Virus record (IMG/VR): IMGVR_UViG_3300025151_006999
Span: 1-47,519 of that record
Strand: one strand, 5' to 3'
DNA: 47,519 nt
Source: a virus
The translations under genes and the position numbers were made by a program. Shown in pieces: positions 9,003-34,792 of this stretch; the stretch's first letter is position 1; each line of letters opens with the position of its first letter. Below the pieces are notes generated by a model, which ran no database searches, was not told the DNA's origin, and saw only the letters and a list, made by a program, of their open reading frames with translations.

Positions 9003-9007
9003 GTTTA

Positions 9008-11156: not shown

Positions 11157-11164
11157 GGAAGCAT

Positions 11165-12143: not shown

Positions 12144-12171
12144 AAATTTTATTTTATATAACTTGTCTTAT

Positions 12172-12204: not shown

Positions 12205-12205
12205 C

Positions 12206-12230: not shown

Positions 12231-12252
12231 CTTAAATATATGTAAAGTATAA

Positions 12253-12738: not shown

Positions 12739-12758
12739 TTTATACTTTTATTATTTAT

Positions 12759-12766
12759 TATAAATA
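12759..12766 (-). promoter_or_regulatory. TATTTATA octamer upstream of the tail tube gene
   Basis: The coding strand reads TATTTATA 20 bases before the tube ATG (the plus strand reads TATAAATA, the T4 late-promoter core, in the opposite orientation to the gene). Copies occur before several structural genes in the window. It may be a late promoter element of this phage or simply reflect AT-rich leaders. Confidence 0.25.
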
Positions 12767-12779
12767 TCTATTTTTTTAA

Positions 12780-17461: not shown

Positions 17462-18078
17462 TAAAATGTATATTTAAAATAATCTAAATCTTTTTCCCAT
17501 AGTTTAGATAAAGCTTTTACTTGTTCTGTAGTGTAGTAATCTCTATAGTTTTTTACTTTATATTCGGTTCTATTAGTATTTTTTAATTTAGGTAAATTTA
17601 AAGTAAGAAAAAAAGTATTGAGTTTATGTATATCTTCTAGTTTAAAGTATCCATCTATATACATATTATCATCTTTATCGTATATAAAGCTAAACATACT
17701 CTTTTTCATAGGCGGTAAATGCCAAGGTTTATCTGGGTCTAGGTAATGATCTACAAAATCCGCCCAATTATAAGTTTTGTGAATTCTATTAACGTTTGCC
17801 CATCCATATTGCCAGTTATGGTAGTGATAGCTCACTAGTATGTCAAAAGGATTTCTGACTACGGTTAAGTGAGTATCGTTTTCATAGTATGACTCAGAGT
17901 TATCTATTTTTGACTTAAATCCTTGTCCAGTCCAGTATTTCTTTTTATCTTCTTCGTTTTTAAAAGGATTAAATAGGTAGCCATGGTCTAATACTTTTAT
18001 AAAAGGATTATCATTTTCTTTTAAAAGAGTCTTAATACTTGTAGTTCCTGTCTTCTGTATGGCTGTAAATACAATCAC
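17461..18078 (-). CDS. Sulfotransferase
   Basis: A 205-residue PAPS-dependent sulfotransferase. I choose the GTG at 18078, which overlaps the stop of the upstream gene as GTGA; the longer frame from 18129 would overlap it by 55 bases and place 17 unrelated residues before the first strand. From this start the protein reads MIVFTAIQKTGTTSIKTLL, the canonical 5'-phosphosulfate loop at the N-terminus. The 3'-phosphate site is TVVRNPFDILVSYHYH. A C-terminal aromatic-rich region would bind the acceptor. It probably sulfates a glycan made by the cassette. Confidence 0.78.
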   Translation of the reverse strand: MIVFTAIQKTGTTSIKTLLKENDNPFIKVLDHGYLFNPFKNEEDKKKYWTGQGFKSKIDNSESYYENDTHLTVVRNPFDILVSYHYHNWQYGWANVNRIHKTYNWADFVDHYLDPDKPWHLPPMKKSMFSFIYDKDDNMYIDGYFKLEDIHKLNTFFLTLNLPKLKNTNRTEYKVKNYRDYYTTEQVKALSKLWEKDLDYFKYTF

Positions 18079-19439
18079 GAATAATTTTCTAAATAATACT
18101 TTAAATCTTCCGGTGTTCCTAGACCCCACATCTTATCGATATTGAAAGTTCTAATTGCTTTTTTATCTTTTATAGCTTCGTTAAAAACTGGGCAAACATA
18201 AAACTCATTATTAACTCTAATATCTTCTTCTATCATTTGTTCTGCATACTTAACAAAATCAGAACCTTTTTTCCAGTAATAATAACCTACTGTAGCAATA
18301 TCTGAGATAGGATTCTTTTCAGCAACTTCTGTAACTAATCCTGCTTTATTAATTTTAGCAAATGACCATTTAGGATGAGTAGCTTTAAAAGTAACTATAC
18401 CGCCATCTGCATCTGTTTCATTCATTTTATATAGAAACTCATTTGAGTCCCATTCTACAAATTGATCAGAGTTAGCAAAGAATAAAGGGTTGTCGTTATC
18501 TATAAACTTCTTAGCTAACAGAGCAGTACAAGCTGCTCCTTCTGTTACACTGTTTACTTCTACAATTTTACATTTAGGAGTAATTAAGTTAAGTAGAGTA
18601 TCTAAATTATATTTTTCTCTATGCTGTTTTTGTACTACATAAATAAAATTAGCTTTAATATTTAAATTTTCAGTAACAACTTGAATCATAGGCTTGCCTT
18701 TAACGTCAATTAAAGGTTTAGGAAACGTATATCCTGCTTGCTCAAATCTACTTCCAGCTCCTGCCATAGGAATAAGTACATTGAGATTTTCATCTCTCCA
18801 TGCCGGTGTAGATTGTTTTTCTCCCATATCTATTTGCTCAATTTTACTTAAAATTTTATCTACAACTACTTCTGATGGGTTTTTAACTCTATAGATATAA
18901 GACTTACTTCTCGATGCAGCAAGTAATCCATAAGGTGAATCTTCTACTATAAGAGTTTCTTCTGGTAGAACACTCATTTTAGATATTGCAGTCCAATATA
19001 TTTCTGGGTGTGGTTTAGGGTTAGTAACATCTTCTCCTGAAAGGATAAAGTCCATATACTCAGCTAAGCCTAGTTTAGCTAAAACTGTTATAGCAGTCTT
19101 ACGTATAGAGTTAGTACATAATCCCATTTTAAATCCTGCTTTAGATAGTTCTGCCATAATCGACTGTAGTCTAGTATCAGGTTCTATATCTCTTAACATC
19201 TCAAAGGTAATTAACTGCTTCTTTTTCCATATTTCATTATGTTTTTCTACAGGTAATCCTTTCTTTTCAGATAATACTTTAAGTTTTTGTTTAGTAGTTA
19301 AACCATCATATACAGCAAGGTGTTCAGCCCAATCAAAAGCATATTCTCCTAATGCTTTATTTAATGCTTTAAAGTGTAAGTGCTTTGTTTCTATTAAAAC
19401 TCCGTCTAAATCGAATATAATTAATTTTATAGTGCTCAT
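18075..19439 (-). CDS. Bifunctional HAD phosphatase / sugar nucleotidyltransferase
   Basis: A 454-residue fusion. Residues ~1-205 are a beta-phosphoglucomutase-type HAD domain: FDLDGVLIE with nucleophile Asp10 and Asp12, the TNS motif at 109-111, KPHP at 142-145, and VEDSPYG at 165-171. Residues ~218-454 are a nucleotidyltransferase: PMAGAGSRF at 224-232, KPLIDVKGKPMI at 241-252, and a FANSDQFVEWDS metal site. Together they could act on a sugar phosphate and form the nucleotide-activated sugar. The second half is a paralogue of the stand-alone enzyme at 28222, which is next to a separate HAD gene, so the same pair exists both fused and split in this cassette. Confidence 0.85.
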   Translation of the reverse strand: MSTIKLIIFDLDGVLIETKHLHFKALNKALGEYAFDWAEHLAVYDGLTTKQKLKVLSEKKGLPVEKHNEIWKKKQLITFEMLRDIEPDTRLQSIMAELSKAGFKMGLCTNSIRKTAITVLAKLGLAEYMDFILSGEDVTNPKPHPEIYWTAISKMSVLPEETLIVEDSPYGLLAASRSKSYIYRVKNPSEVVVDKILSKIEQIDMGEKQSTPAWRDENLNVLIPMAGAGSRFEQAGYTFPKPLIDVKGKPMIQVVTENLNIKANFIYVVQKQHREKYNLDTLLNLITPKCKIVEVNSVTEGAACTALLAKKFIDNDNPLFFANSDQFVEWDSNEFLYKMNETDADGGIVTFKATHPKWSFAKINKAGLVTEVAEKNPISDIATVGYYYWKKGSDFVKYAEQMIEEDIRVNNEFYVCPVFNEAIKDKKAIRTFNIDKMWGLGTPEDLKYYLENYS

Positions 19440-20212
19440 AATTTTTTTATATAGTCATACAAATACTCAGCCCATTCTATATGACTCACATCTGTAGGAT
19501 GTGCTGTTCTAAAGTATTTACCTTCGTCCCAGTCGTCTAATCCATGTTTTACGCATATGTATTCTTTAAAGTGTGCTTTTGATGGGTCATTAATAATCCA
19601 TTTCGATTTGTCTATAAATTTAGACATATACTGTTGGTCAAAATCTTCAAACTTATCAAATGCATTAAAAAATAAGTAATCTATATTATTTAATTTAAGG
19701 TAATTTTGTAAATTAAAGATATAAAATAGAAATTCATTTTGTATATAGTTTAATTTATCATATAAATCATTTGCTAATGTATGATTATCCGGTCTTTGTT
19801 GTTGTACTGTGAGTTCATTATTTTCAGTTATGTAGATAGGTATTCTTATCATCGAAGTCCATCCAACTATTACTAAGTCAGGTTTTTTACCTTGATTTTT
19901 CAACCATTCGCATGATTGAATAGTAGTTTGGCAAATGGCATGATTATCATCTCCTAATCTACCCGCATTCCAGGTTTCGCTCCCCAGTAATCTTCCTAGT
20001 TTTTTAGGCCAAACCTGCGAGTCATAGAATTTATATAGTACTCTAGTATTATTGTGTACTAGAGGGTTTCCAAATGGATCTAGGTACTTATAAAGATTAC
20101 CAAAGTGAGGAACAATATCATACCAGTCCATAGACTTCTTAGCATGCCAGTTTGCTTGTTGTGCTGGGCTATCTCCTTGTGTCCAACTATCTCCGTTAGT
20201 TAATAATATCAT
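19436..20212 (-). CDS. SGNH/GDSL hydrolase-like protein (GDSW type)
   Basis: A 258-residue SGNH-family protein. The nucleophile block GDSWTQGD has Ser9, and the C-terminal block HPTDVSH gives Asp241 and His244 with the family's D-x-x-H spacing. A Gly block (NAGRLGDDNH) and a LVIVGWTS strand follow the fold. Members hydrolyse or transfer acyl groups; in glycan loci they are usually O-acetyl esterases or acetyltransferases. It resembles the 38125 protein most. It overlaps both neighbours (17 and 4 bases). Substrate unknown. Confidence 0.75.
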   Translation of the reverse strand: MILLTNGDSWTQGDSPAQQANWHAKKSMDWYDIVPHFGNLYKYLDPFGNPLVHNNTRVLYKFYDSQVWPKKLGRLLGSETWNAGRLGDDNHAICQTTIQSCEWLKNQGKKPDLVIVGWTSMIRIPIYITENNELTVQQQRPDNHTLANDLYDKLNYIQNEFLFYIFNLQNYLKLNNIDYLFFNAFDKFEDFDQQYMSKFIDKSKWIINDPSKAHFKEYICVKHGLDDWDEGKYFRTAHPTDVSHIEWAEYLYDYIKKL

Positions 20213-20996
20213 AATGATTAATAAAATTTTTTAAGCCAGTTCCTCCTTTTACATGTACTAAGAAAGGAATTTCATTAAAGCTATGTATATTGTTTTTTAT
20301 TCTGTTTAATCCAGGGTAATTTTTTCTTAAAGTATCTCTATAATATCTACCTAATCCTACTTCGTAATAGCCCGGAAGATGAAGAAATTTTAATTTTTTT
20401 TCTCTACAAATTTTAGTTGCATCGTGATTATTATCTCCTAACTCATAGCCTATATCTATATTATGTTTACTATAAAAATTATTTCTACATAAAAACCAGT
20501 AACAATCAGCAAAAAAAGATCCTTCAAGTTCAGCTACTTTTTTCTTAGGTTTTGCATCAATTGTTATATACTGTAAGTTATCCTCTTCAAGCAAACCAAT
20601 TGCATCAGTAAGTAATTTATCCATAGGATAGTAATTATCTAAATACCATATATCATTATGCTGTATAATAAAATAATCTCCTGTTGCTGCTTCAATTCCT
20701 AAGTTATATGCCATTGCTGTAACTTCAGCTTGATTTCTTTTTTCTAAATTAGTTATAACTTTGAGTCCGTCTAAAACTTTTACTCTGTCATCATCAGTAT
20801 TTAATTTAAAGTCACCGGAATTGTCGATTAGTACAATTTCAACGTTAAGGTCTACTGATAAAATTTGATCTATTAATTTATTAGTATGAGAAAGAATAGC
20901 TTGATCGAGATCTGGTTTAATCTCAGGCCAGTCTCTTTTATCAAACACTGTCATTGGCCAGGTTGAACTATAACATATTATAAAACTTATTCTCAT
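20196..20996 (-). CDS. Glycosyltransferase family 2-like
   Basis: A 266-residue GT-A-type transferase. It opens with MRISFIICYSSTW, then VEIVLIDNSGDF, the AYNLGIEAATGDYFIIQHND stretch typical of GT2 enzymes, with HND in place of the usual DxD metal motif. Later parts contain a GYELGDNNHDATKIC acidic segment that could hold the catalytic base. It would add a sugar to a growing chain at the cytoplasmic side of the membrane or to a protein. It precedes the SGNH gene and overlaps the NeuB-like gene by 4 bases. Confidence 0.72.
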   Translation of the reverse strand: MRISFIICYSSTWPMTVFDKRDWPEIKPDLDQAILSHTNKLIDQILSVDLNVEIVLIDNSGDFKLNTDDDRVKVLDGLKVITNLEKRNQAEVTAMAYNLGIEAATGDYFIIQHNDIWYLDNYYPMDKLLTDAIGLLEEDNLQYITIDAKPKKKVAELEGSFFADCYWFLCRNNFYSKHNIDIGYELGDNNHDATKICREKKLKFLHLPGYYEVGLGRYYRDTLRKNYPGLNRIKNNIHSFNEIPFLVHVKGGTGLKNFINHYDIIN

Positions 20997-21826
20997 TTAA
21001 ATCTACCTCTATAATAATCGTGGTTAAATACTTGTTGATCGTTAAATTTATTTAATTCTCTATACTGATCTTCTTTATTCATATTACTGAATCGTTTGAG
21101 TTCAGACATCATTTTTGGTGTAACTGATACTTTACCGTCTCTTGTATCATCTATATTTAAAATAGTAAAGTGTCTTTCTAATACATCTATTCCTTGAAAA
21201 ATAGCTAATTTAGACGATAGTAAACTATCTTCATGAGGATTACTATGATCACTTAAGCCTACATTCTGCACTCCTAATTCGTTTCTAAAATACTCTATAT
21301 TCTGTAAATTAAGTTTATCTAATGGTGTAGGGTATACACAAGTACATTGAAGCATATAATATTCAATACCCATTGCATTTAAATTTTTTACAGTTTTTTT
21401 TATTTCTTCTAATGTTAAACTTGAAGTAGAAAAGAATAATCTCTTAAATTTAAAGTTTTTTAATTTTTTACCATAATCAAAAGCAGGTATAGAGTATCCA
21501 GATATTTTTAAATTATCGTATCCTAGTTCGTTAAATCTAGGAGCATGTTGCGGTACAAATATAGTAGTCATAGACTCTACTCCATACTCCATACATTTTA
21601 ATATAAAAAGCTCTTCATCTTCTTTACTCAGTTCTAATCCTTTAAGTCTACTATACTCAGGTTCGTACGGTCTATGCTTTTCATAGTTCTCTCTAAAAGT
21701 AAGATTACTAGCATGTATAGTTTGTATTTTTACTATATCACTACATACAGCAGCAGTCTTTATCATAGAGTCTAAAGTATCTAAATTACCATTATGATTT
21801 TGACAGAGTTCAGCTATAATTTTCAT
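20993..21826 (-). CDS. NeuB-like nonulosonic acid synthase
   Basis: A 277-residue enzyme of the sialic acid synthase family, which condenses phosphoenolpyruvate with an N-acyl-hexosamine to give a nine-carbon acid. The barrel motifs are present: IAELCQNHNGN with Glu6, VKIQTI, QCTCVYPTPLDKLNL, GLSDHS and ERHFT (the two metal-binding His). The usual C-terminal SAF/antifreeze-like lid, which takes NeuB to about 345 residues, is missing, so a lidless variant is likely. The cassette also encodes a NeuA-like CMP transferase (30053), supporting a nonulosonic acid pathway; no NeuC-type epimerase was recognised. Confidence 0.8.
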   Translation of the reverse strand: MKIIAELCQNHNGNLDTLDSMIKTAAVCSDIVKIQTIHASNLTFRENYEKHRPYEPEYSRLKGLELSKEDEELFILKCMEYGVESMTTIFVPQHAPRFNELGYDNLKISGYSIPAFDYGKKLKNFKFKRLFFSTSSLTLEEIKKTVKNLNAMGIEYYMLQCTCVYPTPLDKLNLQNIEYFRNELGVQNVGLSDHSNPHEDSLLSSKLAIFQGIDVLERHFTILNIDDTRDGKVSVTPKMMSELKRFSNMNKEDQYRELNKFNDQQVFNHDYYRGRFK

Positions 21827-22610
21827 CTATATAAGTTAAAATTAATTTTAATAAATCTTTATTCGCACCAGGAGAAGGATGTCCTTTAGAAAAGTATCTA
21901 CCAAATGGAGGTGACCCGCTTCTGAGAGTTGTATCATTGAAATCTTTTGAGATTTTTAAATAATGATCAATTCTTAGTTTATGATACCAGCAATCTTCTA
22001 TCTCTCCTAAATCTTTAAATTTTATTTCTTTATTTACGTTAAATGAAAGATACTGCAATTTGTTTTTTATATTATTAATATTATTCTCTAAGCTATTAAA
22101 TACAACATAGTTAATATTTTTAGACTTTAAAAATCCATCTAAAAATAACATCTGCCATTCTAACTTCTCTTGTTCACTATTCAAATCAAAAAAATACTTT
22201 TCCCAAGTTTTAATATACTCTTTAAATTTTTCAGCGTCATAATTTTCAGTAGTAATTTTTTTAGTTAAATCTGCTAACTCTCTTGTATGTTTATCCCAGT
22301 TTTGAAATAAATGTAAGTCGTAAAATCTATCTTGCCAAATTGAGTAAACTTCTTTTCTAGTAATTCCTGATAGCCCTATAAGTATAAAAGGGTTTTTATA
22401 TTTGGTCTCTTTATAAAACTTGTAAATACTCCTAAATATAGATTCATTACCAAACCCTGGTTGAGCATAACATACTTCAGGTATATTAAAATGCTTAGAA
22501 AGAAGATTTGAAACTCTATATTCATCTCCAAGGAAATTACCGTCTATATCTTCTATAGCTGAACCATTAATAAAGCTGCATCCAAAACTAGCTATGCAAT
22601 CGTATTTCAT
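21810..22610 (-). CDS. SGNH hydrolase-like protein (GCSF type)
   Basis: A 266-residue SGNH-like protein with ASFGCSFINGSAIED near the start (Ser12 as likely nucleophile, with Cys replacing the usual Asp) and GHPSPGANKDLL at the C-terminus as the His block. The Gly/Asn blocks are recognisable (AQPGFGNES; LIGLSG). It belongs to the GCS-x-T subgroup found four times here. It probably removes or transfers an acyl group on a sugar. It overlaps the NeuB-like gene by 17 bases, so acylation of the nonulosonic acid is one possibility, by inference. Confidence 0.65.
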   Translation of the reverse strand: MKYDCIASFGCSFINGSAIEDIDGNFLGDEYRVSNLLSKHFNIPEVCYAQPGFGNESIFRSIYKFYKETKYKNPFILIGLSGITRKEVYSIWQDRFYDLHLFQNWDKHTRELADLTKKITTENYDAEKFKEYIKTWEKYFFDLNSEQEKLEWQMLFLDGFLKSKNINYVVFNSLENNINNIKNKLQYLSFNVNKEIKFKDLGEIEDCWYHKLRIDHYLKISKDFNDTTLRSGSPPFGRYFSKGHPSPGANKDLLKLILTYIDENYS

Positions 22611-23431
22611 ACTATCTTTTCAATTACCCTTTTATAAGCTTTTTCTTGAGCTTCTATAGCTGTTCCTCCTATATGTGGAGTAATAAGTATACGGTTATCA
22701 TTATAACATTTAAGAACGGTAGCTTTAGATGTATGTTCTTCTTTAATTACATCAGTACCGTATCCTAAAACTTTACCATCGTAGATAAGTTTAATAATCT
22801 CTTCTTCATTTACTACTTCACCACGACTAGTATTAACAATATAGAGATTATTTTTGAATTTTCCAACGAACTCTTCATTTATATAGTCTATATTTTCATC
22901 TTTATAGTCTATATTGATAGATAAAAAATCAGTATCGCTAAAGAAATTATCGTCTACAAAATTAGTATCTGCTTTTAATATATTTTTAAATAAAGGTTTA
23001 GCTATTTTTTCTAGAATCTTACCTAATCTTCCATATCCTAATATACCTAAAGTTTTTTCTTTTAATTCAACTATATTTCCTACTTTTCTTGGTATAGCTA
23101 GACATAGGTATAAATTGTGTTCTGCGGTAGAGTAAATTTCTTTTAATATACTATCATTTTTTATTGATATAACCGGTATAGAGACATTTATATGGTTATC
23201 GCCAGTGGAAGGAGTTATTATTCCTTTGATACCTGTACCTTCTATATCTTTATCTTCAATTATATACTTTAGATAGTTGGGTGCAGCAAATAAATAATCA
23301 ACACTTTTAAAAATGTTCAATTTATCTTTAGGGAGTCCTACCATACTTATACATTTAAAATTTTTATTTACAAAATCTGCAAAAATAGGTAGATGTTTAT
23401 ATGGTGTTAAAAATCCAATACTAGCCTTCAT
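22607..23431 (-). CDS. D-isomer specific 2-hydroxyacid dehydrogenase
   Basis: A 274-residue NAD-dependent dehydrogenase of the phosphoglycerate dehydrogenase type. The Rossmann motif GYGRLG is at 132-137 in LGILGYGRLGKIL; the catalytic triad is Arg203 (NTSRGEVVNEE), Glu231/232 (VIKEEH) and His253 (TPHIGG). It is somewhat shorter than typical members (~310-330), mainly in the N-terminal substrate domain. It interconverts a 2-hydroxy acid and a 2-keto acid; with the adjacent aminotransferase this suggests a small three-carbon-type precursor or an amino donor step, but that is inference. Confidence 0.82.
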   Translation of the reverse strand: MKASIGFLTPYKHLPIFADFVNKNFKCISMVGLPKDKLNIFKSVDYLFAAPNYLKYIIEDKDIEGTGIKGIITPSTGDNHINVSIPVISIKNDSILKEIYSTAEHNLYLCLAIPRKVGNIVELKEKTLGILGYGRLGKILEKIAKPLFKNILKADTNFVDDNFFSDTDFLSINIDYKDENIDYINEEFVGKFKNNLYIVNTSRGEVVNEEEIIKLIYDGKVLGYGTDVIKEEHTSKATVLKCYNDNRILITPHIGGTAIEAQEKAYKRVIEKIV

Positions 23432-24830
23432 AATATACGTTGTCAGTTAAAATATATTCTTTATAATTTTTTTTAGTTTTCCAATATTCATGTTCACAAT
23501 TTATAATTGCAACTTTTTGGTCTTTACTTTTTACAATACTAACATCTCCTGATATAAAATATAACATTTCAATAGGTGTTCTAAAGAAACTATCTAAATC
23601 TATATCTCCTAAAAACAAAGCAAATCCTCTGTAATTGTTTAACTCAGGAATAATAAAAAAATCTAATGTTTTATCTATGTTAATAATAGGTAAGTTGTTT
23701 AAACTATAGCTTCTTTCTTCATAGTTTTTATTTTTTTCATATTCAAATATTTCATTATTTTTATTTAAAAAAATATCAAATTTTTTCAACCAATTTTTTA
23801 TACTATCACCCTCAAAATACTTTTGTAAACTTTTTGGAAATGGATTTTTTGGATTACTAGAATAGGAATCAACTTCTAATAAATCTAAAACTTTTTTATT
23901 AGGAATAATTCTTTTTTCATTTACTAAAGTAGCTAATTTACTTTCATTTCTTTCAAAACATTTCCAAAGTTTAGAAGGTTTGTCTAAAGTAGTATAGACT
24001 GCGTATTGATTATTGTGAAATATTTCGCAAAAGTTATTAAAAGAGTTAAAAGAACTTATTACGTAGTTAGTACCGGGGTGTTTATTTTTACCGCCAGTCA
24101 TTAAATCATCTTTTTGATCGTATATATAAGTAGCTTTAAGTATCGGCATAGGATCTATACCATTATGTCTGTGTACTTTTTGATCTTTAATAATATCTCT
24201 ATCTTCTATTCCAAAACATAAATCAACTATATAATTTTGACCGTCTATTTTTTTAAGAGGGCTATATAGTTTATAAAGTTTCTCGTAAGTATCGATTTTC
24301 TCTATAGATTTAAAATTTTTAAACTTAATTTTATGTGATTGAGATTTTGGAATATATAAAAGTATATTACTTAAGTTTCTTCTACAAAATACACTAGCTT
24401 GCGCTCTTGTTTGTCCTGGATGTATAATCCAACTAAAGTTATGACCAGAGTTAATATCTTCAGCATCTATGGTTGCTTCTGTTAATTTCGATTCTTTTCT
24501 TATACATGTAGTTATGTGTACAGGTACATTAGAATTAAAATTAGATTTCATCATTTCATGTACTATATTAGTTCTCTGTCTCAAGCTTTTAGGGTAGTCT
24601 ACGTTTAAAACAAATTCCATTAATCTTTTAAATAAAAATTTATAGTCCATAATTTGGTTCATGAAACCTGTTCTACTGTACAACCACCTATACCTTATTT
24701 CGTTAATAAGGTTATCATAAGATGAACCTATATCATGAGCAGCTAATTCATAAGGAAAAGAATTAATATGAAATATATCTACTTCCTTAAATGTTCTGTC
24801 TATTATAGAATATGATTTCTTTGTAAACAT
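23421..24830 (-). CDS. Unknown protein with an HPGQTR box
   Basis: A 469-residue protein I cannot assign. It has no signal peptide or clear membrane segment. The most distinctive part is SWIIHPGQTRAQASVFCRRN at about 133-152, which resembles the H-x-G-x-x-R core of ParB-like nuclease/sensor folds and recalls the GTHR boxes of the proteins at 29227 and 30721. C-terminal residues carry several hydrophobic strands (PELNNYRGFALFLGDIDL). It lies between the dehydrogenase and the aminotransferase and overlaps both by 1-11 bases, so it probably works in the same pathway. Confidence 0.5.
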   Translation of the reverse strand: MFTKKSYSIIDRTFKEVDIFHINSFPYELAAHDIGSSYDNLINEIRYRWLYSRTGFMNQIMDYKFLFKRLMEFVLNVDYPKSLRQRTNIVHEMMKSNFNSNVPVHITTCIRKESKLTEATIDAEDINSGHNFSWIIHPGQTRAQASVFCRRNLSNILLYIPKSQSHKIKFKNFKSIEKIDTYEKLYKLYSPLKKIDGQNYIVDLCFGIEDRDIIKDQKVHRHNGIDPMPILKATYIYDQKDDLMTGGKNKHPGTNYVISSFNSFNNFCEIFHNNQYAVYTTLDKPSKLWKCFERNESKLATLVNEKRIIPNKKVLDLLEVDSYSSNPKNPFPKSLQKYFEGDSIKNWLKKFDIFLNKNNEIFEYEKNKNYEERSYSLNNLPIINIDKTLDFFIIPELNNYRGFALFLGDIDLDSFFRTPIEMLYFISGDVSIVKSKDQKVAIINCEHEYWKTKKNYKEYILTDNVYYEG

Positions 24831-25825
24831 TATAACAGTTTTAAATCAAAATTAAATTTAATATATTCTTTATTATCAGGTAGGATAAGAGTTCTGAAGC
24901 TCATTCCTAATTCGTTAAAGTACTTAAGGTTATCTTTATCAGTAAATCTTTCTACAAAAAACCAGCTTGAATCTGTATTTTTTACATTATATCCTTTTTC
25001 AATAAATTTTAAAACGTATTTTTCTTTTTCTTGTTTTGTACGCTTTATATACTCATTATAGTAGTCAATATTATCTAAAATAAACTCAGTATATTTAGCT
25101 CCTACAGAATTTATTTCATACATAAGCCTAAATTTAGATAAATATTCCATGTTATCTTGATGACTAACTAAAAATCCTACTCTACAGCCAGCTGCACCAT
25201 AAGCCTTAGAAAAGGTTTTTGTTACTATCAAATTTTTGTACTGGTGAATTAAGGGTATACAGCTTTCCTCCCCGGTAAATTCTAAGTACGCTTCATCGAT
25301 AATAACAAAAATACCTGTTTCTAATAGCTTTATTATCTGTTTTTGAGTATATACATCACCTAATGGTGAATTAGGGTTAGCCAACATAATAAACTGTGTG
25401 TTACTATCAGTTTGATCTATTATGCTTGACATATTTAGATTCATATCAGTATATTTTGCTTTTCTTAGTTTAGTTTGATATAAATCACTATAAACTTGAT
25501 ACATTGGAAAAAAATATTCAGATGTTACTACATTATTTCCTTGAACGTTAAATGTTTCAAATATAGTCTTAAGTGAAAAAGAAGAACCAGGAGTAAGTAG
25601 TAAGTTGTTCTGATTTATACTGTACAGTTTACATAGTTTATTTTTTAAATTTTCAGTATTAGGATAAAAACATATATCTTTCTGATTAAGAGAACTAAAA
25701 AATTTATCTAATAGTTGCTTGTCTATAGAATAGTTTCTTTCATTCTGAGTTAAAACGTATTTAAATTTGGTTTTATCCTCTTGATTATTTTTTCTATATA
25801 TGTTAAGTAAGTGCTTTTTCACCAA
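24830..25825 (-). CDS. PLP aminotransferase, histidinol-phosphate aminotransferase-like
   Basis: A 331-residue class I/II aminotransferase. PLP-binding Lys207 lies in TKTFSKAYGAAGCRVGF, with ANPNSPLG at 149-156, DEAYLEF at 178-184 and Arg215 as the carboxylate-binding residue. The HisC/CobD-like subgroup fits the length and motifs. It transfers an amino group to a keto compound and may provide an amino sugar or amino acid decoration. It begins 23 bases before the upstream SGNH gene ends and abuts the HPGQTR gene. Confidence 0.82.
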   Translation of the reverse strand: MVKKHLLNIYRKNNQEDKTKFKYVLTQNERNYSIDKQLLDKFFSSLNQKDICFYPNTENLKNKLCKLYSINQNNLLLTPGSSFSLKTIFETFNVQGNNVVTSEYFFPMYQVYSDLYQTKLRKAKYTDMNLNMSSIIDQTDSNTQFIMLANPNSPLGDVYTQKQIIKLLETGIFVIIDEAYLEFTGEESCIPLIHQYKNLIVTKTFSKAYGAAGCRVGFLVSHQDNMEYLSKFRLMYEINSVGAKYTEFILDNIDYYNEYIKRTKQEKEKYVLKFIEKGYNVKNTDSSWFFVERFTDKDNLKYFNELGMSFRTLILPDNKEYIKFNFDLKLL

Positions 25826-26693
25826 AAATTGATTTCGTTAGTTTATTATTAATATTATTATAAAGATTTTCAGCTAATATTTCATTACCTATTTCCGATA
25901 AATGATGATCATTATCTAATAGACCTTCATTATGTAGTGTTGGTCTAGTGCCGTACTTCATTAAATCATCTCCTATACTATAGTTTTCTATTATGTTAAG
26001 AGTATTCGATAATTCATCTAATGTATGAAGTTTTTGTAGTTTTTTTTCAAATCCCTGAGTAAGGTAATCGTAGTAGAGATTTTCAATAAGCTTTTTTTCT
26101 GAAAAAGTATAATTCATAGGTTTGTAAAAAGGTTGGAAAAAGATTCTAACCTGTCCGCCTAATTTTTCTATTATATTCTGTAAGTATAGTAATTGACGGA
26201 GATATTTTGCAAATTCAAATTTAACATGAAATAAATAAGTTAAAAATTCTTTTCTAAATTTGCTATATTCTTTTTCATCATTAGTTAAAGCAAAGTGTTT
26301 AACAGTCCACATTCTAGTTTTTTTGCTAAAAGTATAAACTATTTCATTTCTCCATACTTCCTGAAGCTGTATGATAAAAAGATGGTTAGCTAAAGAACCA
26401 GTTTTAATTAAGTAGTTATTGATTGCTCTTAAAGTACTGTCCGTACCTTGACCACCATATCCAAAATTTATAATTTTATCTATAGGTAAGAATTTTTTTA
26501 ATTTACCCATATATGTAAGATTTTCTGTAATAAAACTAAAATTAGGTTTAACTTTATACTTATCTTTAAGTGCTTGACTTGCCCATACTACTTTATTACC
26601 ATGTTTTCTTTTATTTACAAAAGCGCATCCTTGAGTATGTGAACACCCAGCTGCTATTAAAGTAAGAGGTTTATCAGCTACTATTGATTTCAT
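25803..26693 (-). CDS. SGNH hydrolase-like protein (GCSH type)
   Basis: A 296-residue SGNH-like protein with LIAAGCSHTQGCAF at 12-25 (Ser18 as likely nucleophile), a NFGYGGQGTDS Gly block and a C-terminal DNDHHLSEIGNEIL block that provides Asp and His. It belongs to the GCS-x-T subgroup. A central region rich in Lys and aromatic residues (about 140-220) is larger than in the other copies. Substrate unknown; an O-acetyl esterase or transferase on a glycan is most likely. Overlaps the radical SAM gene by 4 bases. Confidence 0.68.
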   Translation of the reverse strand: MKSIVADKPLTLIAAGCSHTQGCAFVNKRKHGNKVVWASQALKDKYKVKPNFSFITENLTYMGKLKKFLPIDKIINFGYGGQGTDSTLRAINNYLIKTGSLANHLFIIQLQEVWRNEIVYTFSKKTRMWTVKHFALTNDEKEYSKFRKEFLTYLFHVKFEFAKYLRQLLYLQNIIEKLGGQVRIFFQPFYKPMNYTFSEKKLIENLYYDYLTQGFEKKLQKLHTLDELSNTLNIIENYSIGDDLMKYGTRPTLHNEGLLDNDHHLSEIGNEILAENLYNNINNKLTKSIFGEKALT

Positions 26694-27613
26694 CCTTTTA
26701 TTCTCTTTAACATTGGAGCGAGCTCTTTATAGGAGCAGTTTTTACAATGAGATGTTGGGTTGTTAGTCGAACATCCTGTTCTTACTGCGCTATAGTCTTT
26801 AGAATCTCTAATTTCTTCTATAGTCTGTTCAAATAAGTTACCGAAAGGTTTAGCACCTGTGTTTAGACAGCACATTTTTACATGACCTTCAACTGTAGTA
26901 TAAATTCCTTCTTTGACCCAAAAACAGTCAGGAAAATCCCATTCTTCTTTACCTTTTACGTTATCTTTCCAATTTTTATTAAGGTAATCTATCTGTTCTA
27001 GTGTATAACCACCGGGCATAGACTTATCCTCACTCCATTCCTGAGCTATATTTAATCTTAATTCTTCTAAATTATATACATCTACTATTTTATCTTGGAT
27101 AGTTTGAATATCATTAATATTATCTTTATTTACCACATAATTACAGGTTACTCTACATCCATGTCTGTCCATAGGTTTAAAATCTTCAAGAAAAGACATT
27201 AGTTTTTCCCATTTAGCAGGTGCTCTATCTCTTTCATAAGATTCTTTATACCCGTCTATACTAAAGTATAAAAGGTCAATATATTTCATACATTCATTAA
27301 ACTTTATACCCATCTTAGAACCGGGTCTAATAGGGTATTGACAGTTAGTTGCAACAATTAAAAAAGCATCTGGAAAGAATTCTTTAAATGTTTTACATAT
27401 TTCATCAAACTTAGGATGAAGCATTGGTTCACCCATCCCCATTAATTTAGCTTCATTAATAGGGTGGTGTTTAATGTTCTCTAACATCTGTCTAAACTTA
27501 GGTACAGGCATATGTTGTAGTGCTCCTATTACTTCTTCTCTATTACAAAAAGAACACTGGAGATTACAGTAATTTGTAGTCTCTAAATAAGCATATGTAA
27601 TAGGTTTATTCAT
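26690..27613 (-). CDS. Radical SAM enzyme with SPASM-like C-terminus
   Basis: A 307-residue radical SAM protein. The 4Fe-4S ligands are Cys16, Cys20 and Cys23 in NYCNLQCSFC; a GEPMLHPKFDEI segment is the GGEPL-type SAM-binding motif. The C-terminal third holds more cysteines (VKMCCLNTG, then TGCSTNNPTSHCKNC), fitting a SPASM or twitch auxiliary cluster. Such enzymes modify peptides, sugars or cofactors by radical chemistry; in glycan loci they are often dehydratases, epimerases or methylase-like enzymes. The substrate is unknown. Confidence 0.82.
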   Translation of the reverse strand: MNKPITYAYLETTNYCNLQCSFCNREEVIGALQHMPVPKFRQMLENIKHHPINEAKLMGMGEPMLHPKFDEICKTFKEFFPDAFLIVATNCQYPIRPGSKMGIKFNECMKYIDLLYFSIDGYKESYERDRAPAKWEKLMSFLEDFKPMDRHGCRVTCNYVVNKDNINDIQTIQDKIVDVYNLEELRLNIAQEWSEDKSMPGGYTLEQIDYLNKNWKDNVKGKEEWDFPDCFWVKEGIYTTVEGHVKMCCLNTGAKPFGNLFEQTIEEIRDSKDYSAVRTGCSTNNPTSHCKNCSYKELAPMLKRIKG

Positions 27614-28229
27614 CTATATCTCTTTTACTCTTTTTATTATATTGAAAAACATGTTTAATTTTTGCTCTATTTACTTCTATATTATTTTCTAGTATATTAG
27701 CTGCATGGTAATTATGTCCTCCGTACTCAAGTGTTAAATTATCAAGTAACTTAAAATATTTATGACCTGATGCATATAGGTCGAATATATGAGATGCACT
27801 AAAAAATGCATAGTCAGCTGTAAGGTAAGGATTTCCATTATCATCTTCAGTGATATTATCTAATATGGTTAGTTTATTATCTAGTTTTACAGTTTCAAAA
27901 AAGTCTATTAATGCATTTTCGTAAAATAATATTTCACTCCTAGTCCACATTACATAATCATACTTAAAATTGTGTTTAGCTTCGTATCTTTTCTTTAATT
28001 TATTTACTCTATACATACTGTAGATTGATCTATGAGTATTATTAATAAATTTATAACAGTCTACTGGTTTAGTTTCAAAATCGGTCATAAAATGAAAACT
28101 ACTTTTATTTTTGAAATCATTCCAAGTACTTGCGAAAAAGTCTACATAGTCCATTCTTGAGTATATATCGTCAAGAACCTTTGCAGTACGGGTCTGCCCG
28201 TAAAAACATATTGCGATTTTTTTATCCAT
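27606..28229 (-). CDS. Putative glycosyltransferase-like protein (R-x-R-P-D group)
   Basis: A 207-residue member of the four-copy group (with 14943, 16667, 34793). It opens KIAICFYGQTRTAKVLDD, has DFFASTWNDF, and the strand YDYVMWTRSEILFY corresponding to the R-x-R-P-D box. The FYGQTR start is close to the MSGQLRQW start of the 34793 copy. Overlaps both neighbours by 8 bases. Probably a sugar transferase, with low certainty about donor or acceptor. Confidence 0.55.
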   Translation of the reverse strand: MDKKIAICFYGQTRTAKVLDDIYSRMDYVDFFASTWNDFKNKSSFHFMTDFETKPVDCYKFINNTHRSIYSMYRVNKLKKRYEAKHNFKYDYVMWTRSEILFYENALIDFFETVKLDNKLTILDNITEDDNGNPYLTADYAFFSASHIFDLYASGHKYFKLLDNLTLEYGGHNYHAANILENNIEVNRAKIKHVFQYNKKSKRDIDE

Positions 28230-28947
28230 TTAAATATTCCTCTAAGTCTTCCGGTGTTCCCATCTGGTGAACTTTATCTACATGGGTTATTACTATGTGC
28301 CTACCGTCTTTAACAGCATAGTTATAGACTGGTGCTACATAAAACTCATTATTTACTCTATCATTAGCAGCTATCATTTGTTCAGCATATTTTACAAAGT
28401 CAGAGCCTCTATTCCAATAATAATACCCAGCTGTAGCATTAGTGGAAATTTGTTTCTTTTCTGCTACTTCAACTACGTACCCTTCTTCGTCTATTTTAGC
28501 ATAACTCCATTTTGGACCTTTACCTTGAAAGCATGGCATACCTCCGTCGTGTAAACTTAATTGACTATAGGTTTCGCTAGGGTCATATTCAAGCATTTGA
28601 TCTGAGTTAAAACTAAGTAAAGGAATACGGTTGTTTATAAATTCTTTTGCAGTAAGTAAAGTACATGCTGCTCCTTCAGTTATTCCGTTTAGTTTTATTA
28701 TTTCAATATTATCATGTCCAATTATTTCGTTAAATAAAGAAAAATCATACTCTTCATAATCAGATTCTTGACATAAGATAATAAATTTAAAGTTTTTATC
28801 AAACTCTATATTTAAATTCTCTATTACCCTTTGAATCATAGGTTTTCCATTTACATCTATAAACGGTTTAGAGTCTTTATACCCTTGTTGTCTAAATCTT
28901 GATCCTCTTCCTGCCATTGGCAGTACTATATTAAAAAACTGTTTCAT
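28222..28947 (-). CDS. Sugar nucleotidyltransferase
   Basis: A 241-residue nucleotidyltransferase with PMAGRGSRF at 10-18, KPFIDVNGKPMIQRVIENL and a SFNSDQMLEYD metal site. It is a paralogue of the C-terminal half of the 18075 fusion (similar PMAGxGSRF, KPxIDVxGKPMIQ and YYYWxxGSDFVKYAEQMI stretches). It activates a sugar-1-phosphate (or a related phospho-compound) with NTP. Its start overlaps the separate HAD phosphatase gene by one base, a pairing that mirrors the fused protein. LicC-like and RmlA-like activities are both possible. Confidence 0.8.
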   Translation of the reverse strand: MKQFFNIVLPMAGRGSRFRQQGYKDSKPFIDVNGKPMIQRVIENLNIEFDKNFKFIILCQESDYEEYDFSLFNEIIGHDNIEIIKLNGITEGAACTLLTAKEFINNRIPLLSFNSDQMLEYDPSETYSQLSLHDGGMPCFQGKGPKWSYAKIDEEGYVVEVAEKKQISTNATAGYYYWNRGSDFVKYAEQMIAANDRVNNEFYVAPVYNYAVKDGRHIVITHVDKVHQMGTPEDLEEYLNG

Positions 28948-29243
28948 TAAAAAAAATCTTTAGGATGAATTCCTCTATCGTCTATAAATACATCTGCATC
29001 AAATGGTTTAAAATAAAGATGATGATACTTACACCCCCAGCTCTCTAATTGAGCTTCAGTTATAGGTCTATAGTACTTTTCTCCTCTACCGCTTTTATTT
29101 CCTCTAGCTGTATAGTATATTATTGTATGACCTTCATCATACATTTTGTTAATCTTTTCTATTCTATCTTTAAAAGGCTTTCTATCAATAACAGGTCCTT
29201 CTTCTTTACAGATAGTATCATCTATATCAATAACATATTTCAT
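28947..29243 (-). CDS. Small HAD-type phosphatase
   Basis: A 98-residue HAD phosphatase of the capless type. Nucleophile Asp6 and general acid Asp8 lie in YVIDIDDTICKEEG; TARG holds the motif II residue; and FIDDRG near the C-terminus supplies the metal-binding acids. Small HAD proteins of this kind are found in capsule loci. It would remove phosphate from a sugar or sugar-1-phosphate intermediate. It sits beside the nucleotidyltransferase gene with a one-base overlap, so the two probably act in sequence. Confidence 0.75.
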   Translation of the reverse strand: MKYVIDIDDTICKEEGPVIDRKPFKDRIEKINKMYDEGHTIIYYTARGNKSGRGEKYYRPITEAQLESWGCKYHHLYFKPFDADVFIDDRGIHPKDFF

Positions 29244-30060
29244 CGTATATATTTTTAGTGCTGTATGCTTTTACAGTTTTGTTTTTAAGATTTATATTTA
29301 ATAACTCAGGGTATGCTTTTTTAACTGAATAATAAGTTGGGTTTTTATCATTGTCTATTCTAAAAAAATAAGGAACATCATATCCGGCGTGAGCTATCAA
29401 AAAAGGTCTGTGAGTACCTCTTCCGTCAAATTCCCATCTTGCTTCTTTTATTTCAGTATCTGGTTTTTTATCAATGTAGTAAAGTAAGGGGTTGATAATA
29501 CCTTCTTCTTTTAAACTCATAAACCATTCTATCGCAAAATCTGCTCTCCATTTATATACTTCTTCAGCTTTGTTAGTCTCAGTAGTTTTCAAAGGATAGT
29601 TTTCATCGTACTTTTTTAAATAACTTATATAGTTTTCTTTTGTCCATCCTTTAGAAGAGTTATTTATTTCTTCTATAAATTTATTTAATATCTTCAAATC
29701 TTTATTATGTAAAACGTTTTTTTGATTTTTTATAATAATCTCTTTTGGTAAAGTTAAATATAAAAATTTTCCATTATCTAAACATTGACGACTAAAAGTC
29801 TTTCCAGTTAAATCTGTTTTTGCATTTACTATTTTTCCATAGTCACATTTTCTATAATATCCTATAGCTTTGTATGTTACAGTATTCGGGTATACTTCTT
29901 CTTCTTTAATAGGAAAACTATCTATTGGATAGTCTCCTTCTATCTTCCATCGAGTATCTTTAAACAGTTCTATTTGATTTAGAATAAACCTATCTTTAAG
30001 TTCATTCCATGTAAGTACATCAAATGGTTTTAAATCAGAAAAAGCATTAGTTTTAAACAT
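29227..30060 (-). CDS. GTHR-box protein, paralogue of the sulfotransferase-fused domain
   Basis: A 277-residue protein that matches the C-terminal ~270 residues of the 30721 protein in layout and several motifs: KPFDVLTWNEL near the start (KPFDILEYEDV there), a YLTLP strand in the middle, and the box FDGRGTHRPFLIAHAGYDVP at 211-230 (RRGTHRAFLLSMTDSDIP there). The G-x-HR-x-x box recalls the ParB/sulfiredoxin-like fold, which in other families binds nucleotides. The catalytic role here is unknown. Overlaps both neighbours (17 and 8 bases). The stand-alone form shows the domain can act without the sulfotransferase. Confidence 0.5.
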   Translation of the reverse strand: MFKTNAFSDLKPFDVLTWNELKDRFILNQIELFKDTRWKIEGDYPIDSFPIKEEEVYPNTVTYKAIGYYRKCDYGKIVNAKTDLTGKTFSRQCLDNGKFLYLTLPKEIIIKNQKNVLHNKDLKILNKFIEEINNSSKGWTKENYISYLKKYDENYPLKTTETNKAEEVYKWRADFAIEWFMSLKEEGIINPLLYYIDKKPDTEIKEARWEFDGRGTHRPFLIAHAGYDVPYFFRIDNDKNPTYYSVKKAYPELLNINLKNKTVKAYSTKNIYDEICY

Positions 30061-30724
30061 ACTTATTATGTATTGCTTTTACAAGTTTGAAATCTATTTC
30101 TATATCTACATCTATAAGTTCTTCATCAGGCCAATCAATTACATAAGGGTAAGGATCGTTTTTACTATTAGAAAATAATTCCCAATTATTTAACATATAG
30201 TCTTTTTTATAAAATACTAAAGAATGAGTAGCTTTATATACCCAAGGACCGGAAGTTGTAGATAGTCTATCGTTTTCTTTAAAATTAACTGGGTTAGATC
30301 TAGTATCCCAAAAAAAGTTTCTTTCTTTTGTTACAGTTATAGCACTATCGTATTTACTATTTATAAACCAATCAATAACTTCTTGTACTTTGTAAACGTC
30401 TAAAAATGGTTGACATGGATTATAGTTACATATATAATCTGATTCTACATTTTCTAAGTGTTTATACATAATAGAATGATGGGCATTTCCAGGTGCTACT
30501 GATTCTCTATTTCTATGTAAAATCGGCACTCCTGGTATGTATTGATCCATAATATCTCTGTCATATGCTGCTAAATACTTTTCTTGTACGTTTTTAATAT
30601 CTCTTACATTTGTAAGGGCATAATCTAACATACAGTGGCCAGCTTTATCTAATGGTCTTAAATGTTTATTTGGGACTCTGGTGCTTTCTTTACGAGCATG
30701 TATTATAACTGCTAAACTTTTCAT
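30053..30724 (-). CDS. NeuA-like CMP-sugar (nonulosonic acid) cytidylyltransferase
   Basis: A 223-residue nucleotidyltransferase of the CMP-sialic acid synthetase type. The N-terminal loop VIIHARKESTRVPNKHLRPL matches the IxARxxSxRxPxKN motif; CNYNPCQPF corresponds to the family's LQPTSPF strand; and the C-terminal DVDIEIDFKLVKAI fits the conserved DIDxxxDFxxA. With the NeuB-like enzyme at 20993 it supports synthesis and activation of a nonulosonic acid. The initial loop is divergent, so a 3-deoxy-manno-octulosonate-type substrate is not excluded. Confidence 0.72.
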   Translation of the reverse strand: MKSLAVIIHARKESTRVPNKHLRPLDKAGHCMLDYALTNVRDIKNVQEKYLAAYDRDIMDQYIPGVPILHRNRESVAPGNAHHSIMYKHLENVESDYICNYNPCQPFLDVYKVQEVIDWFINSKYDSAITVTKERNFFWDTRSNPVNFKENDRLSTTSGPWVYKATHSLVFYKKDYMLNNWELFSNSKNDPYPYVIDWPDEELIDVDIEIDFKLVKAIHNKYV

Positions 30725-33037: not shown

Positions 33038-33875
33038 TAACCATTTTTAAAAAACTATTAAAGTAAAATTCTTGTTCAGCACTACCAGGATGACCGTCTC
33101 TAGCAGGTACATTGTCTTTTCCAACTAAACTTTCTTTTTCTTTTCTATTGATATAGTAAGATCTATAATAAAAATCTACTCCTATTTCACTACATAAACC
33201 TTTTATTGCATGAATAACTTTACTTTCATGAATAGTATCATTCATTTCACTACCAAAAATAAAACTCTTAAAAAACTTACCTTGAGGTTCTTTAATATGA
33301 AAGTTACTTCCCATGCTCTGAGCAAGCCATTGCATTAAGTCGGGTTTATTTACAAAATAGTCATCAATCAGTCCGTTATCTTCTGTAAACCATTCATATC
33401 TGTAAGGGGGAGGTGCGAGTAAAAATACTTTATCGAACTTTAATTTATCTTTATACCCTAAAAGTAGCCTGTAAGCACTGTCTAATCCAAGACCTGCTTG
33501 ACCTAAGTTGAAATGCTTTGTATTTAAAGCTTTAGCTAATTTATAACTCCAGTTATATTCAATAGGCAGCCCTATCCCTTCGGTATAACTACATCCTAAA
33601 CAAAGTATTCCTTTGCCTTCAAATGAATCATCTGATCTAAAACCTTTTTCGTTGTATCTATACTCTATTTTTTTATCTTTCCAATAATTAAACTGTTCTT
33701 TAATAAACGGTCTAGTAGGTGAACCTATTCTTTCGATAAACATATCTTGAGAATCTGATCCTCTCCAGTATACGGTTTTATTTTCTTCGTAGTTGCTTGT
33801 GGAAAGTAGTTTGTTTAGTACTCTTCTACTATTTTCATCAAAAGATCGATGAGCGAATAAATCTTCGAATATCAT
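33024..33875 (-). CDS. SGNH hydrolase-like protein (GCSY type, N-terminal extension)
   Basis: A 283-residue SGNH-like protein in which the nucleophile block ILCLGCSYTEG comes late, with Ser96, after a ~85-residue extension that includes a YNEKGFRSDD segment. The Gly block is NLGQAGLGLDSAYR and the C-terminal block is ARDGHPGSAEQEFY. The KGFRSDD-before-SGNH arrangement is known in alginate/exopolysaccharide-type SGNH proteins. Probably an acyl esterase or transferase on a glycan. Overlaps both neighbours by 4-14 bases. Confidence 0.72.
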   Translation of the reverse strand: MIFEDLFAHRSFDENSRRVLNKLLSTSNYEENKTVYWRGSDSQDMFIERIGSPTRPFIKEQFNYWKDKKIEYRYNEKGFRSDDSFEGKGILCLGCSYTEGIGLPIEYNWSYKLAKALNTKHFNLGQAGLGLDSAYRLLLGYKDKLKFDKVFLLAPPPYRYEWFTEDNGLIDDYFVNKPDLMQWLAQSMGSNFHIKEPQGKFFKSFIFGSEMNDTIHESKVIHAIKGLCSEIGVDFYYRSYYINRKEKESLVGKDNVPARDGHPGSAEQEFYFNSFLKMVNENN

Positions 33876-34792
33876 ATAACCAGGGATTTAATATAATTTG
33901 CGGCTTTTTCATAACCATTTTTTGTTAGCTGTATACTATTATAAATAGAATTGTCTTTATAAAAATCTAAAAGAGATTTTGATGGTGATTTAGACACATT
34001 CTGTTTAATTCCTATGCCTAGTTCTTCTACCTTATTTGCTAGGTCTATTATTTCACTTGAATCATTATTATCGTACAAAGCTATCATAGGAATATGGTGC
34101 TTTACACAATGAGTAATAATCCCACCACCAGGTCTTGCTACCATTACAACGTTATTTATATCATTAATATTAGTTGAGTAGTTTAAATTAAATTTATCCA
34201 TATAGCTACTGTAGGAATTTAAGTAATTCAAACTAGGTTTAAGAAACACTATATTTTTTATACTGTTTTTTACGAAAGGTAAAGTAGGGCATCCGAAGCC
34301 GAATTGTTTTTTATTGTTATATTTTTTTACACTACCTACTTCAAAGTACTTATTAGTAAGAATAAGAGGATTATATTTAGTAAGAAGTTTATTGTCGAAT
34401 TCTGATAGTTTATTATCGCCAAACTTATCCTTAAAAATATCTTTCCAAAGAAATGAACCACTTAGTATAGCGTCTGATCTATATTTTAATATACCTACTA
34501 TATTATCAGTTATTACCAGGTCGTACTTTTTAAATAAATTAGCCTTTTCGTCAAGTCCTTTCATATATTCATTAAATCTTATACTATTAAGAGATATGTT
34601 TTTATCCCATCTTATAGTATCTTCTTTAAGAATTAAGTGTTCACATTTTTCTAAAGGCTTTAGTTTTTGAATTTGATAGTTTTTAGAAAGTAGCGTAACA
34701 TTAAAGTCATTTGTCAAATACGAAGCTATAGTTTTACATCTATCGTAGTGACCATATCCATTAGAACTAATAAAAAAGAGTATTTTTTTCAT
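33872..34792 (-). CDS. GT-B glycosyltransferase (MurG/GT1-like)
   Basis: A 306-residue GT-B enzyme. The N-terminal strand and glycine loop ILFFISSNGYGHYDR (5-18) match the acceptor-domain start of MurG and related enzymes, and VVMVARPGGGIITHCVKHHI (215-234) matches the donor-binding loop, including the conserved Gly-rich turn and the His. It transfers a sugar from a UDP- or similar donor. No membrane segment is obvious, so it probably acts on the cytoplasmic face. It directly abuts the next gene upstream with no gap. Confidence 0.75.
   Translation of the reverse strand: MKKILFFISSNGYGHYDRCKTIASYLTNDFNVTLLSKNYQIQKLKPLEKCEHLILKEDTIRWDKNISLNSIRFNEYMKGLDEKANLFKKYDLVITDNIVGILKYRSDAILSGSFLWKDIFKDKFGDNKLSEFDNKLLTKYNPLILTNKYFEVGSVKKYNNKKQFGFGCPTLPFVKNSIKNIVFLKPSLNYLNSYSSYMDKFNLNYSTNINDINNVVMVARPGGGIITHCVKHHIPMIALYDNNDSSEIIDLANKVEELGIGIKQNVSKSPSKSLLDFYKDNSIYNSIQLTKNGYEKAANYIKSLVI

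Follow-up and report, generated by a model that had tools for sequence, protein, structure and literature searches.

Gene content and co-occurrence at the NeuB locus

The window analyzed here is a 47.5-kb virus record from IMG/VR (IMGVR_UViG_3300025151_006999), the substantial genes of which are all encoded on the minus strand. Among its proteins (denoted by w numbers; L numbers denote viral or cellular loci that were fetched for comparison) are a homolog of the synthase NeuB (w22) and a NeuA-like cytidylyltransferase (w33). A prediction made earlier from the nucleotide sequence alone had joined these two genes with an aminotransferase and SGNH proteins in one operon for synthesis of a nonulosonic acid by the phage. 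Both open reading frames (ORFs) are exactly as described there and lie in one dense minus-strand run (Table 1). Comparison with other loci reveals a compact gene set, gained or lost on repeated occasions within a family of marine tailed phages, that is centered on this shortened NeuB relative and its activating partner.

Queries with NeuB fetched 49 viral loci, 48 of which have a NeuB ORF; the whole ones are 270-279 amino acids (aa) long in the subset measured. Upstream of NeuB, in those of the 48 loci that were long enough, we identified homologs of the 2-hydroxyacid dehydrogenase w24 (36/37), w25 (30/30), the aminotransferase w26 (29/29), the radical S-adenosylmethionine (SAM) enzyme w28 (23/23), and w33 (20/22), with near-copies such as L035/L037 retained in the counts. 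Because counts from NeuB-bearing loci cannot separate one module from another, the reverse question was asked from the radical SAM gene. Briefly, 67 loci centered on w28 homologs were compiled and 64 were analyzed (L158, L081, and L079 were left out), of which 59 had 8 kb of downstream sequence; removing near-copies reduced these to 52, of which 36 include both flanks (NeuB being present in 15 and absent from 21).

All 59 usable radical SAM loci encode w26, whereas NeuB was identified in 29, w24 in 28, and w25 in 29. Within the 36 de-duplicated loci, every locus with NeuB also encodes w24, w25, w33, and a member of the w32/w34 cluster (15/15 each), as compared to 0, 1, 2, and 3, respectively, of the 21 loci without NeuB. 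When every ORF cluster present in at least six loci was screened, the same four again ranked highest. Fisher p-values for these associations (2e-8 for w33) treat loci as independent, carry no correction for the clusters tested, and reflect few independent events. On the w28 tree, NeuB status switches eight times, and well-supported branches force at least three of these switches. Exceptions were L094, which has NeuB without w24 and w25, and L095 and L156, which have w33 without NeuB. Additionally, L128 encodes w25 and w33 with no NeuB detected by profile, and the NeuB match on that contig (L038) covers no more than its first 44 residues. These data delineate a unit comprising NeuB, the NeuA-like protein, the 2-hydroxyacid dehydrogenase, w25, and w32 that comes and goes together.

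The predicted pairing of NeuB with a NeuA-like partner, in what is a glycosyltransferase-rich phage cassette, is upheld by these counts, while the remainder of the proposed gene list is altered: the aminotransferase falls outside the NeuB pathway, and the partners w24, w25, and w32 had gone unmentioned. The SGNH proteins fared less well, their Pfam matches being to DUF6071, with a GDSL lipase match at E = 0.011 only.

Table 1. Features of the window and of locus L089. All coordinates are those of the window except in the last row, where they are those of L089. AF2, AlphaFold 2; pLDDT, predicted local distance difference test; Z, score from VIA; PLP, pyridoxal phosphate.
Protein	Description	Coordinates	Strand	Evidence
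w22	Lidless NeuB-family synthase, 277 aa	20993..21826	-	PF03102 2.1e-33; AF2 pLDDT 95.1; clade branch 100/99
w24	D-2-hydroxyacid dehydrogenase (phosphoglycerate-dehydrogenase-like); NeuB-module member	22607..23431	-	PF02826 3.2e-26
w25	469 aa, fast-evolving, no known family, invariant HPGxTR motif; NeuB-module member	23421..24830	-	Alignment; co-occurrence
w33	NeuA-like CMP-acylneuraminate-type cytidylyltransferase, 223 aa; NeuB-module member	30053..30724	-	PF02348 (CTP_transf_3) 2.2e-12
w32	277 aa, invariant RG-x-HR motif; NeuB-module-associated	29227..30060	-	Co-occurrence (w32/w34 cluster); alignment
w31	Small EcbF/BcbF-type HAD phosphatase; weaker NeuB association	28947..29243	-	TIGR01689 6e-6, below cutoff
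w37	GT-B-fold (UGT/MurG-like), candidate glycosyltransferase	33872..34792	-	AF2 pLDDT 84.2; Z 19.4 to EspG2, 18.2 to MurG
w26	HisC-like PLP aminotransferase	24830..25825	-	PF00155 E = 1.8e-34; TIGR01141 6e-54, below cutoff
w28	Radical SAM/SPASM enzyme	26690..27613	-	PF04055, PF13186; 67 viral loci, NeuB in 29/59 usable
w30	Sugar-phosphate-type nucleotidyltransferase	28222..28947	-	PF00483 1e-8
w19	HAD phosphatase-nucleotidyltransferase fusion	18075..19439	-	Downstream neighbor of NeuB in 33/45 loci
w12	Tail sheath	12780..14504	-	phrog_23 6.5e-74; 66% identical to Flavobacterium phage immuto
L089	GT29 homologs	8247-8879, 10978-11661, 11642-12322, 12319-13068		

The NeuB homolog w22 lacks the lid domain

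The score of w22 is well above the PF03102 gathering score (116 versus 22.1 bits). As predicted, the protein is lidless: a Pfam scan revealed no SAF domain (PF08666) in w22 or in three cellular relatives. Since SAF was detected by the same kind of search in a NeuB homolog that adjoins a lidless one (L064:10969-12069; PF08666 E = 2e-10), loss of the lid from w22 is real and not a search artifact. In a profile alignment, the lidless proteins stop at the first SAF motif of SpsE from B. subtilis (1vli).

The barrel predicted for w22 by AlphaFold is intact, and the top fold matches were the sialic acid synthetase of Leptospira borgpetersenii (6ncs; VIA Z 30.3), meningococcal NeuB (1xuu/2wqp; Z 28.9), and PseI (Z 27.4). 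The DAHP and KDO8P synthases were the next folds (Z 19-21, as compared to 25-30 for the NeuB family); w22 has no Pfam match to either of these families, and neither is its closest fold. The Leptospira protein, at 290 aa, likewise has no room for a complete SAF domain, but it is 22% identical to w22 and the root-mean-square deviation (rmsd) reaches 6.2 once the C-terminal part is counted. NeuB from N. meningitidis has the barrel and the metal- and phosphoenolpyruvate (PEP)-binding residues in common with w22 (rmsd 2.5 across 248 residues), whereas w22 is without SAF or the lid Arg/Thr, has E134 and N184 replaced, and scores far under the equivalog cutoff.

Alignment to the meningococcal enzyme indicates that w22 keeps E6, K33, K107, S192, H194, E217, H219, and D230, which we take to be equivalent to E25, K53, K129, S213, H215, E234, H236, and D247. 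Both Mn-binding His, two of the three Glu, and both PEP Lys of the canonical NeuB active site are present. Loss of metal- or PEP-binding residues had been named in the original prediction as telling against it, and these residues are kept. The parts of the site that bind the acceptor (lid Arg/Thr, third Glu, and Asn) are absent or altered. Furthermore, R52 and R60 are invariant and R45 is near-invariant in the clade. All three belong to the loop that follows K33, the PEP lysine, where the DAHP and KDO8P synthases bind the sugar phosphate. The antifreeze-domain Arg322 and Glu30 of C. crescentus NeuB are described as mattering for function (PMC7591256). Taken together, the alignment and the structural model suggest that w22 has probably kept its PEP chemistry with a different acceptor; this acceptor is probably not N-acetylmannosamine (ManNAc), because the lid that helps to bind ManNAc is absent.

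Ratios of nonsynonymous to synonymous change (pN/pS) between w22 and its four nearest homologs were 0.14-0.19, and w22 is under strong purifying selection. Corresponding values for w24, w26, w28, w30, w31, w33, and w19 were 0.07-0.41, as compared to 0.55-0.66 for w25; the cassette enzymes are maintained, and w25 evolves fast.

Partner proteins of the NeuB module

The NeuA-like protein w33 exceeds the PF02348 gathering score (47.7 versus 22.6 bits) and falls below the NCBIfam equivalog cutoffs for PseF (23.6 versus 205.7) and kdsB (16.5 versus 155.2). In a virus-only alignment, A10, R11, S14, K20, D207, and D211 are invariant; we take AR..S..K and D-x-x-x-D to be the conserved motifs of the NeuA/PseF/KdsB cytidylyltransferases (PF02348). 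Screening of PHROGs revealed no family that matches w22, w25, w32, or w33; w25 also has no Pfam family and no solved relative in the PDB, and w32 has no Pfam match. Their HPGxTR and RG-x-HR motifs had suggested by analogy that the two proteins share a ParB/Srx-like fold, an idea that was rejected on a profile-profile probability of 0.1%, with w25 having no PDB relative.

Less tightly associated with NeuB are w31, which was identified in 14/15 loci with NeuB as compared to 10/21 (hidden Markov model [HMM] search) or 7/21 (ORF clusters) without, and w37 (10/15 versus 2/21). A role for w37 as a PseG-type hydrolase that supplies the sugar was considered; PseG was not among the fold matches listed for w37, the 50 entries of both lists being UGT/MurG-type GT-B enzymes.

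Distribution of lidless NeuB in cells and other phages

In a phylogenetic reconstruction, 46 lidless sequences (20 viral and 26 cellular) were split from nine other NeuB relatives by a branch with 100/99 support, and the viral lidless sequences formed one side of a further 100/99 branch inside the lidless set. By sequence, the lidless clade is distinct from SAF-bearing NeuB. We identified 35 cellular loci with lidless NeuB, affiliated with SAR11, SAR116, Prochlorococcus, Thaumarchaeota, Parcubacteria, Woesearchaeota, Chloroflexota, Bacteroidota, and others. The distribution in cells is patchy: homologs at E ≤ 1e-30 were detected in 4 of 147 genomes in the family of one center genome (G002) and in 2 of 296 in the phylum of another (G001), with each count including the center genome itself. 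In L064 the SAF-bearing NeuB immediately adjoins the lidless one, and a close copy of it occurs in L065; the presence of a second, longer NeuB next to the lidless one suggests that the two have different jobs.

Neighbors of lidless NeuB in the 35 cellular loci, counted from ORF clusters the representatives of which were then identified, included a NeuA-like cluster (30 loci), GT-B-like proteins (19), and a 2-hydroxyacid dehydrogenase (7). The dehydrogenase, a homolog of w24, is immediately upstream of lidless NeuB in L040, L054, and L063, and HMM searches matched w37 to nine proteins of cellular loci, where its homologs adjoin lidless NeuB. The cellular modules resemble that of the phages in belonging to the same clade, in ending with the same N-x-x-Y-Y-R-G-R-F motif, and in having NeuA-like neighbors, at times together with a 2-hydroxyacid dehydrogenase and GT-B proteins, whereas their NeuB proteins are 35-43% identical to and ~35-60 residues longer than the phage ones. 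An HMM search of the fetched cellular loci revealed no homologs of w25, w26, or w32, and w25 is absent from four cellular genomes with lidless NeuB.

Among the Thaumarchaeota (L039, L041, L043, and L050-L052), large members of the NeuA-like cluster (599-686 aa) adjoin lidless NeuB. In the one that was scanned, from L039, a cytidylyltransferase is joined to a Lar_N domain of the lactate racemase type.

NeuB relatives are rare in other phages. Screening of 50,697 phage records with w22, a cellular lidless NeuB, and a longer cellular NeuB as queries revealed a relative in only three: a Moritella contig, a Kyanoviridae single-cell virus, and an uncultured phage of 484 kb. In the Kyanoviridae marine virus AG-345-L05 (L088; MH319754.1 78464-97240), a NeuA-like gene, a DegT aminotransferase, a 272-aa NeuB without SAF, and a w31-like HAD gene are consecutive (7134-10160). 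In the 484-kb phage (L089; LR756508.1 313778-332521), a SAF-less synthase of the NeuB family is surrounded by four homologs of vertebrate-type GT29 sialyltransferases (PF00777, 1.6e-26 to 7.9e-32). The w31-like HAD gene is directly after the NeuB-type gene in L088 and 3.3 kb downstream in L089.

Proposed function and alternative explanations

From what is shown directly (the presence of the genes, the intact barrel, purifying selection, and co-occurrence) we infer that w22, w24, w25, w33, and w32 together would make and activate an acidic 2-keto-3-deoxy sugar, nonulosonic or ulosonic in class, a reading to which we assign a probability of roughly 0.6. Judging from its fold and conserved residues, w22 would join PEP to an aldose; w33, judging from its family, would form the cytidine monophosphate (CMP) derivative; and a glycosyltransferase of the cassette, possibly w37, would move the sugar onto a glycan of the virion or infected cell. 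Our preferred guess for the acceptor is a different or phosphorylated aldose, with the small HAD protein w31 as a possible phosphatase. That the phage makes an activated nonulosonic-type acid, as a class, is well supported, and the product of the module is probably an unusual acidic sugar that would be placed on the surface of the phage or of the infected cell.

Several observations weigh against this reading. The score of w22 is far below the equivalog cutoffs for NeuB_NnaB (TIGR03569; 127.4 versus 399.65) and PseI (TIGR03586; 89.2 versus 340.25). At the position of the third catalytic Glu (E134), phages have Ser and cells have Asp, and N184 is replaced by Cys in phages and by Thr in many cells. 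The best PDB match of the virus-only NeuA-like profile, the CMP-NeuAc synthetase 1qwj, was at 7.6e-5 only, and two of the 21 loci lacking NeuB retain w33. A profile of the four L089 proteins detected no GT29 sialyltransferase at E ≤ 1 in the window or in its viral or cellular relatives. Lastly, none of the sugar-supplying enzymes NeuC, PseB, PseC, PseH, and PseG was recognized among the proteins scanned (w13, w15, w16, w39, and w49-w51 were outside the Pfam/NCBIfam scan), which agrees with the earlier remark that no NeuC-type epimerase is seen.

Ordinary synthesis of N-acetylneuraminic acid (Neu5Ac), in which host ManNAc and PEP yield Neu5Ac and then CMP-Neu5Ac, would fit with TIGR03569 (6e-37) being the best NCBIfam match of w22 and with the virus-only NeuA-like profile being nearest to CMP-NeuAc synthetases. 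However, w22 is without the lid, the antifreeze Arg of which (R322) is described as required for function in C. crescentus NeuB (PMC7591256), one of its three catalytic Glu is replaced, its clade stands apart from SAF-bearing NeuB with 100/99 support, and a longer NeuB is encoded beside the lidless one in both L064 and L065. The missing lid Arg/Thr and catalytic Glu make N-acylmannosamine, the substrate originally suggested, doubtful, and Neu5Ac/ManNAc chemistry is unlikely. A route resembling that of Kdo or Kdn-9-phosphate is conceivable, albeit on balance doubtful. Here, the lidless synthase would act on a phosphorylated aldose, w31 would dephosphorylate the product, and w33 would activate it, for which we take KdsA-KdsC-KdsB or the mammalian NANS-NANP-CMAS as analogies. 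The next folds of w22, the KDO8P and DAHP synthases, are themselves lidless, the three Arg lie in the loop after K33, and the w31-like HAD genes of L088 and L089 are beside or near a NeuB-type gene, all of which are consistent with such a route; yet w31 is only loosely tied to NeuB, adjoins w30, and as a profile has zero HAD matches in cellular loci with lidless NeuB.

The tightest NeuB partner, w24, raises the alternative that the product is no sugar but a small hydroxy-acid decoration derived from PEP, with w24 reducing the 2-keto group of the synthase product; the fusion of a thaumarchaeal NeuA-like protein to Lar_N, another 2-hydroxyacid enzyme, points in the same direction. A 2-hydroxy product would not be expected to be activated with CMP at an anomeric carbon in the manner of NeuA, yet w33 is as tightly linked to NeuB as is w24, and we consider this alternative rather unlikely. 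Metagenomic contamination or decaying passenger genes might be entertained given that the source is an IMG/VR record, but this is extremely improbable and contradicted by our results: the contig also carries tail sheath and baseplate genes, arranged as in phage immuto, 49 viral loci were fetched, and purifying selection is strong.

Returning to the synthesis of an activated 2-keto-3-deoxy sugar, we tentatively suggest that the lidless clade may represent a distinct class of sugar-acid synthases that depend on PEP, have an acceptor of their own, and have obligatory partners (the 2-hydroxyacid dehydrogenase, joined in phages by w25 and w32). Phages would then make an ulosonic acid so far undescribed, for virions or infected cells, and the module would move as a unit among phage lineages.

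Relation to previous reports

Reads of neuB (126 reads in eight) and neuA (11 reads in five) were reported from nine viral-only viromes, where both genes were listed as never described in complete viral genomes (Roux 2013, PMC3877843). The account of them there is of reads and gives no genome or gene context; our findings give a genomic home to neuB reads known from viral-only viromes since 2013. Prophage enzymes that modify pseudaminic acid are also known, including epaA/epaB of an Acinetobacter baumannii prophage, which likewise act on a nonulosonic acid but are not involved in its synthesis (PMC12053666). In open-licence PubMed Central literature, which excludes most subscription papers, we found neither phage NeuB cassettes nor the lidless NeuB clade described. 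Gene presence and absence define the companions of NeuB and turn a vague idea of phage sialic acid into a defined gene set. A lidless synthase clade common to SAR11, Prochlorococcus, and Thaumarchaeota offers the chance of a new marine acidic sugar and bears on why phages carry it.

Phage context and other genes of the window

The aminotransferase w26, the radical SAM enzyme w28, and the nucleotidyltransferase w30 (24830-28947) form a conserved phage module that is separate from the NeuB module; w30 was present in 40 of 43 radical SAM loci with 8 kb upstream. A role for w26 in the NeuB route was rejected, since it occurs in 59/59 usable radical SAM loci regardless of NeuB, which occurs in 29 only.

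The left part of the window is a myovirus tail block with the gene order of Flavobacterium phage immuto, and each of w05 to w13 has an immuto counterpart (27-80% identity). The tail sheath w12 places the cassette within the late structural block of a myovirus, and the sheath is at most 8.5 kb from NeuB in 22 of 30 loci. Phage immuto has no glycan cassette before the sheath within the stretch covered (112000-160410), whereas the window has ~30 kb of glycan-type genes there. We infer a marine Bacteroidota host from the synteny with immuto only. No tRNAs were detected in the window, and a scan of 28000-47519 revealed no promoter or terminator signal (88 promoter-like sites versus 113 expected; five terminator-like sites versus 5.1 expected).

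Glycan-type genes of the cassette encode glycosyltransferases of family 7 with LamG domains and of family 2, an exostosin-like one, sulfotransferases, a methyltransferase, and DUF6071 proteins. The two family-7 galactosyltransferase-type proteins w45 and w46 (41095-43886) each have a LamG/ConA-like domain fused to them, which looks unusual for a phage. Several DUF6071 (PF19547) proteins occur in this one cassette, at 19436-20212 (w20; Pfam match 1e-11) and 38125-38964 (w42; 7e-20), and also at 21810-22610 and 37344-38165 (w23 and w41; below cutoff). Two genes belong to the sulfotransferase family PF03567 (17461-18129 and 30721-32190), the second of which clusters with w32. The fusion protein w19 is ~56% identical to homologs in Synechococcus phages (e.g., cyanophage S-CAM9), which ties together glycan genes of different marine phages.

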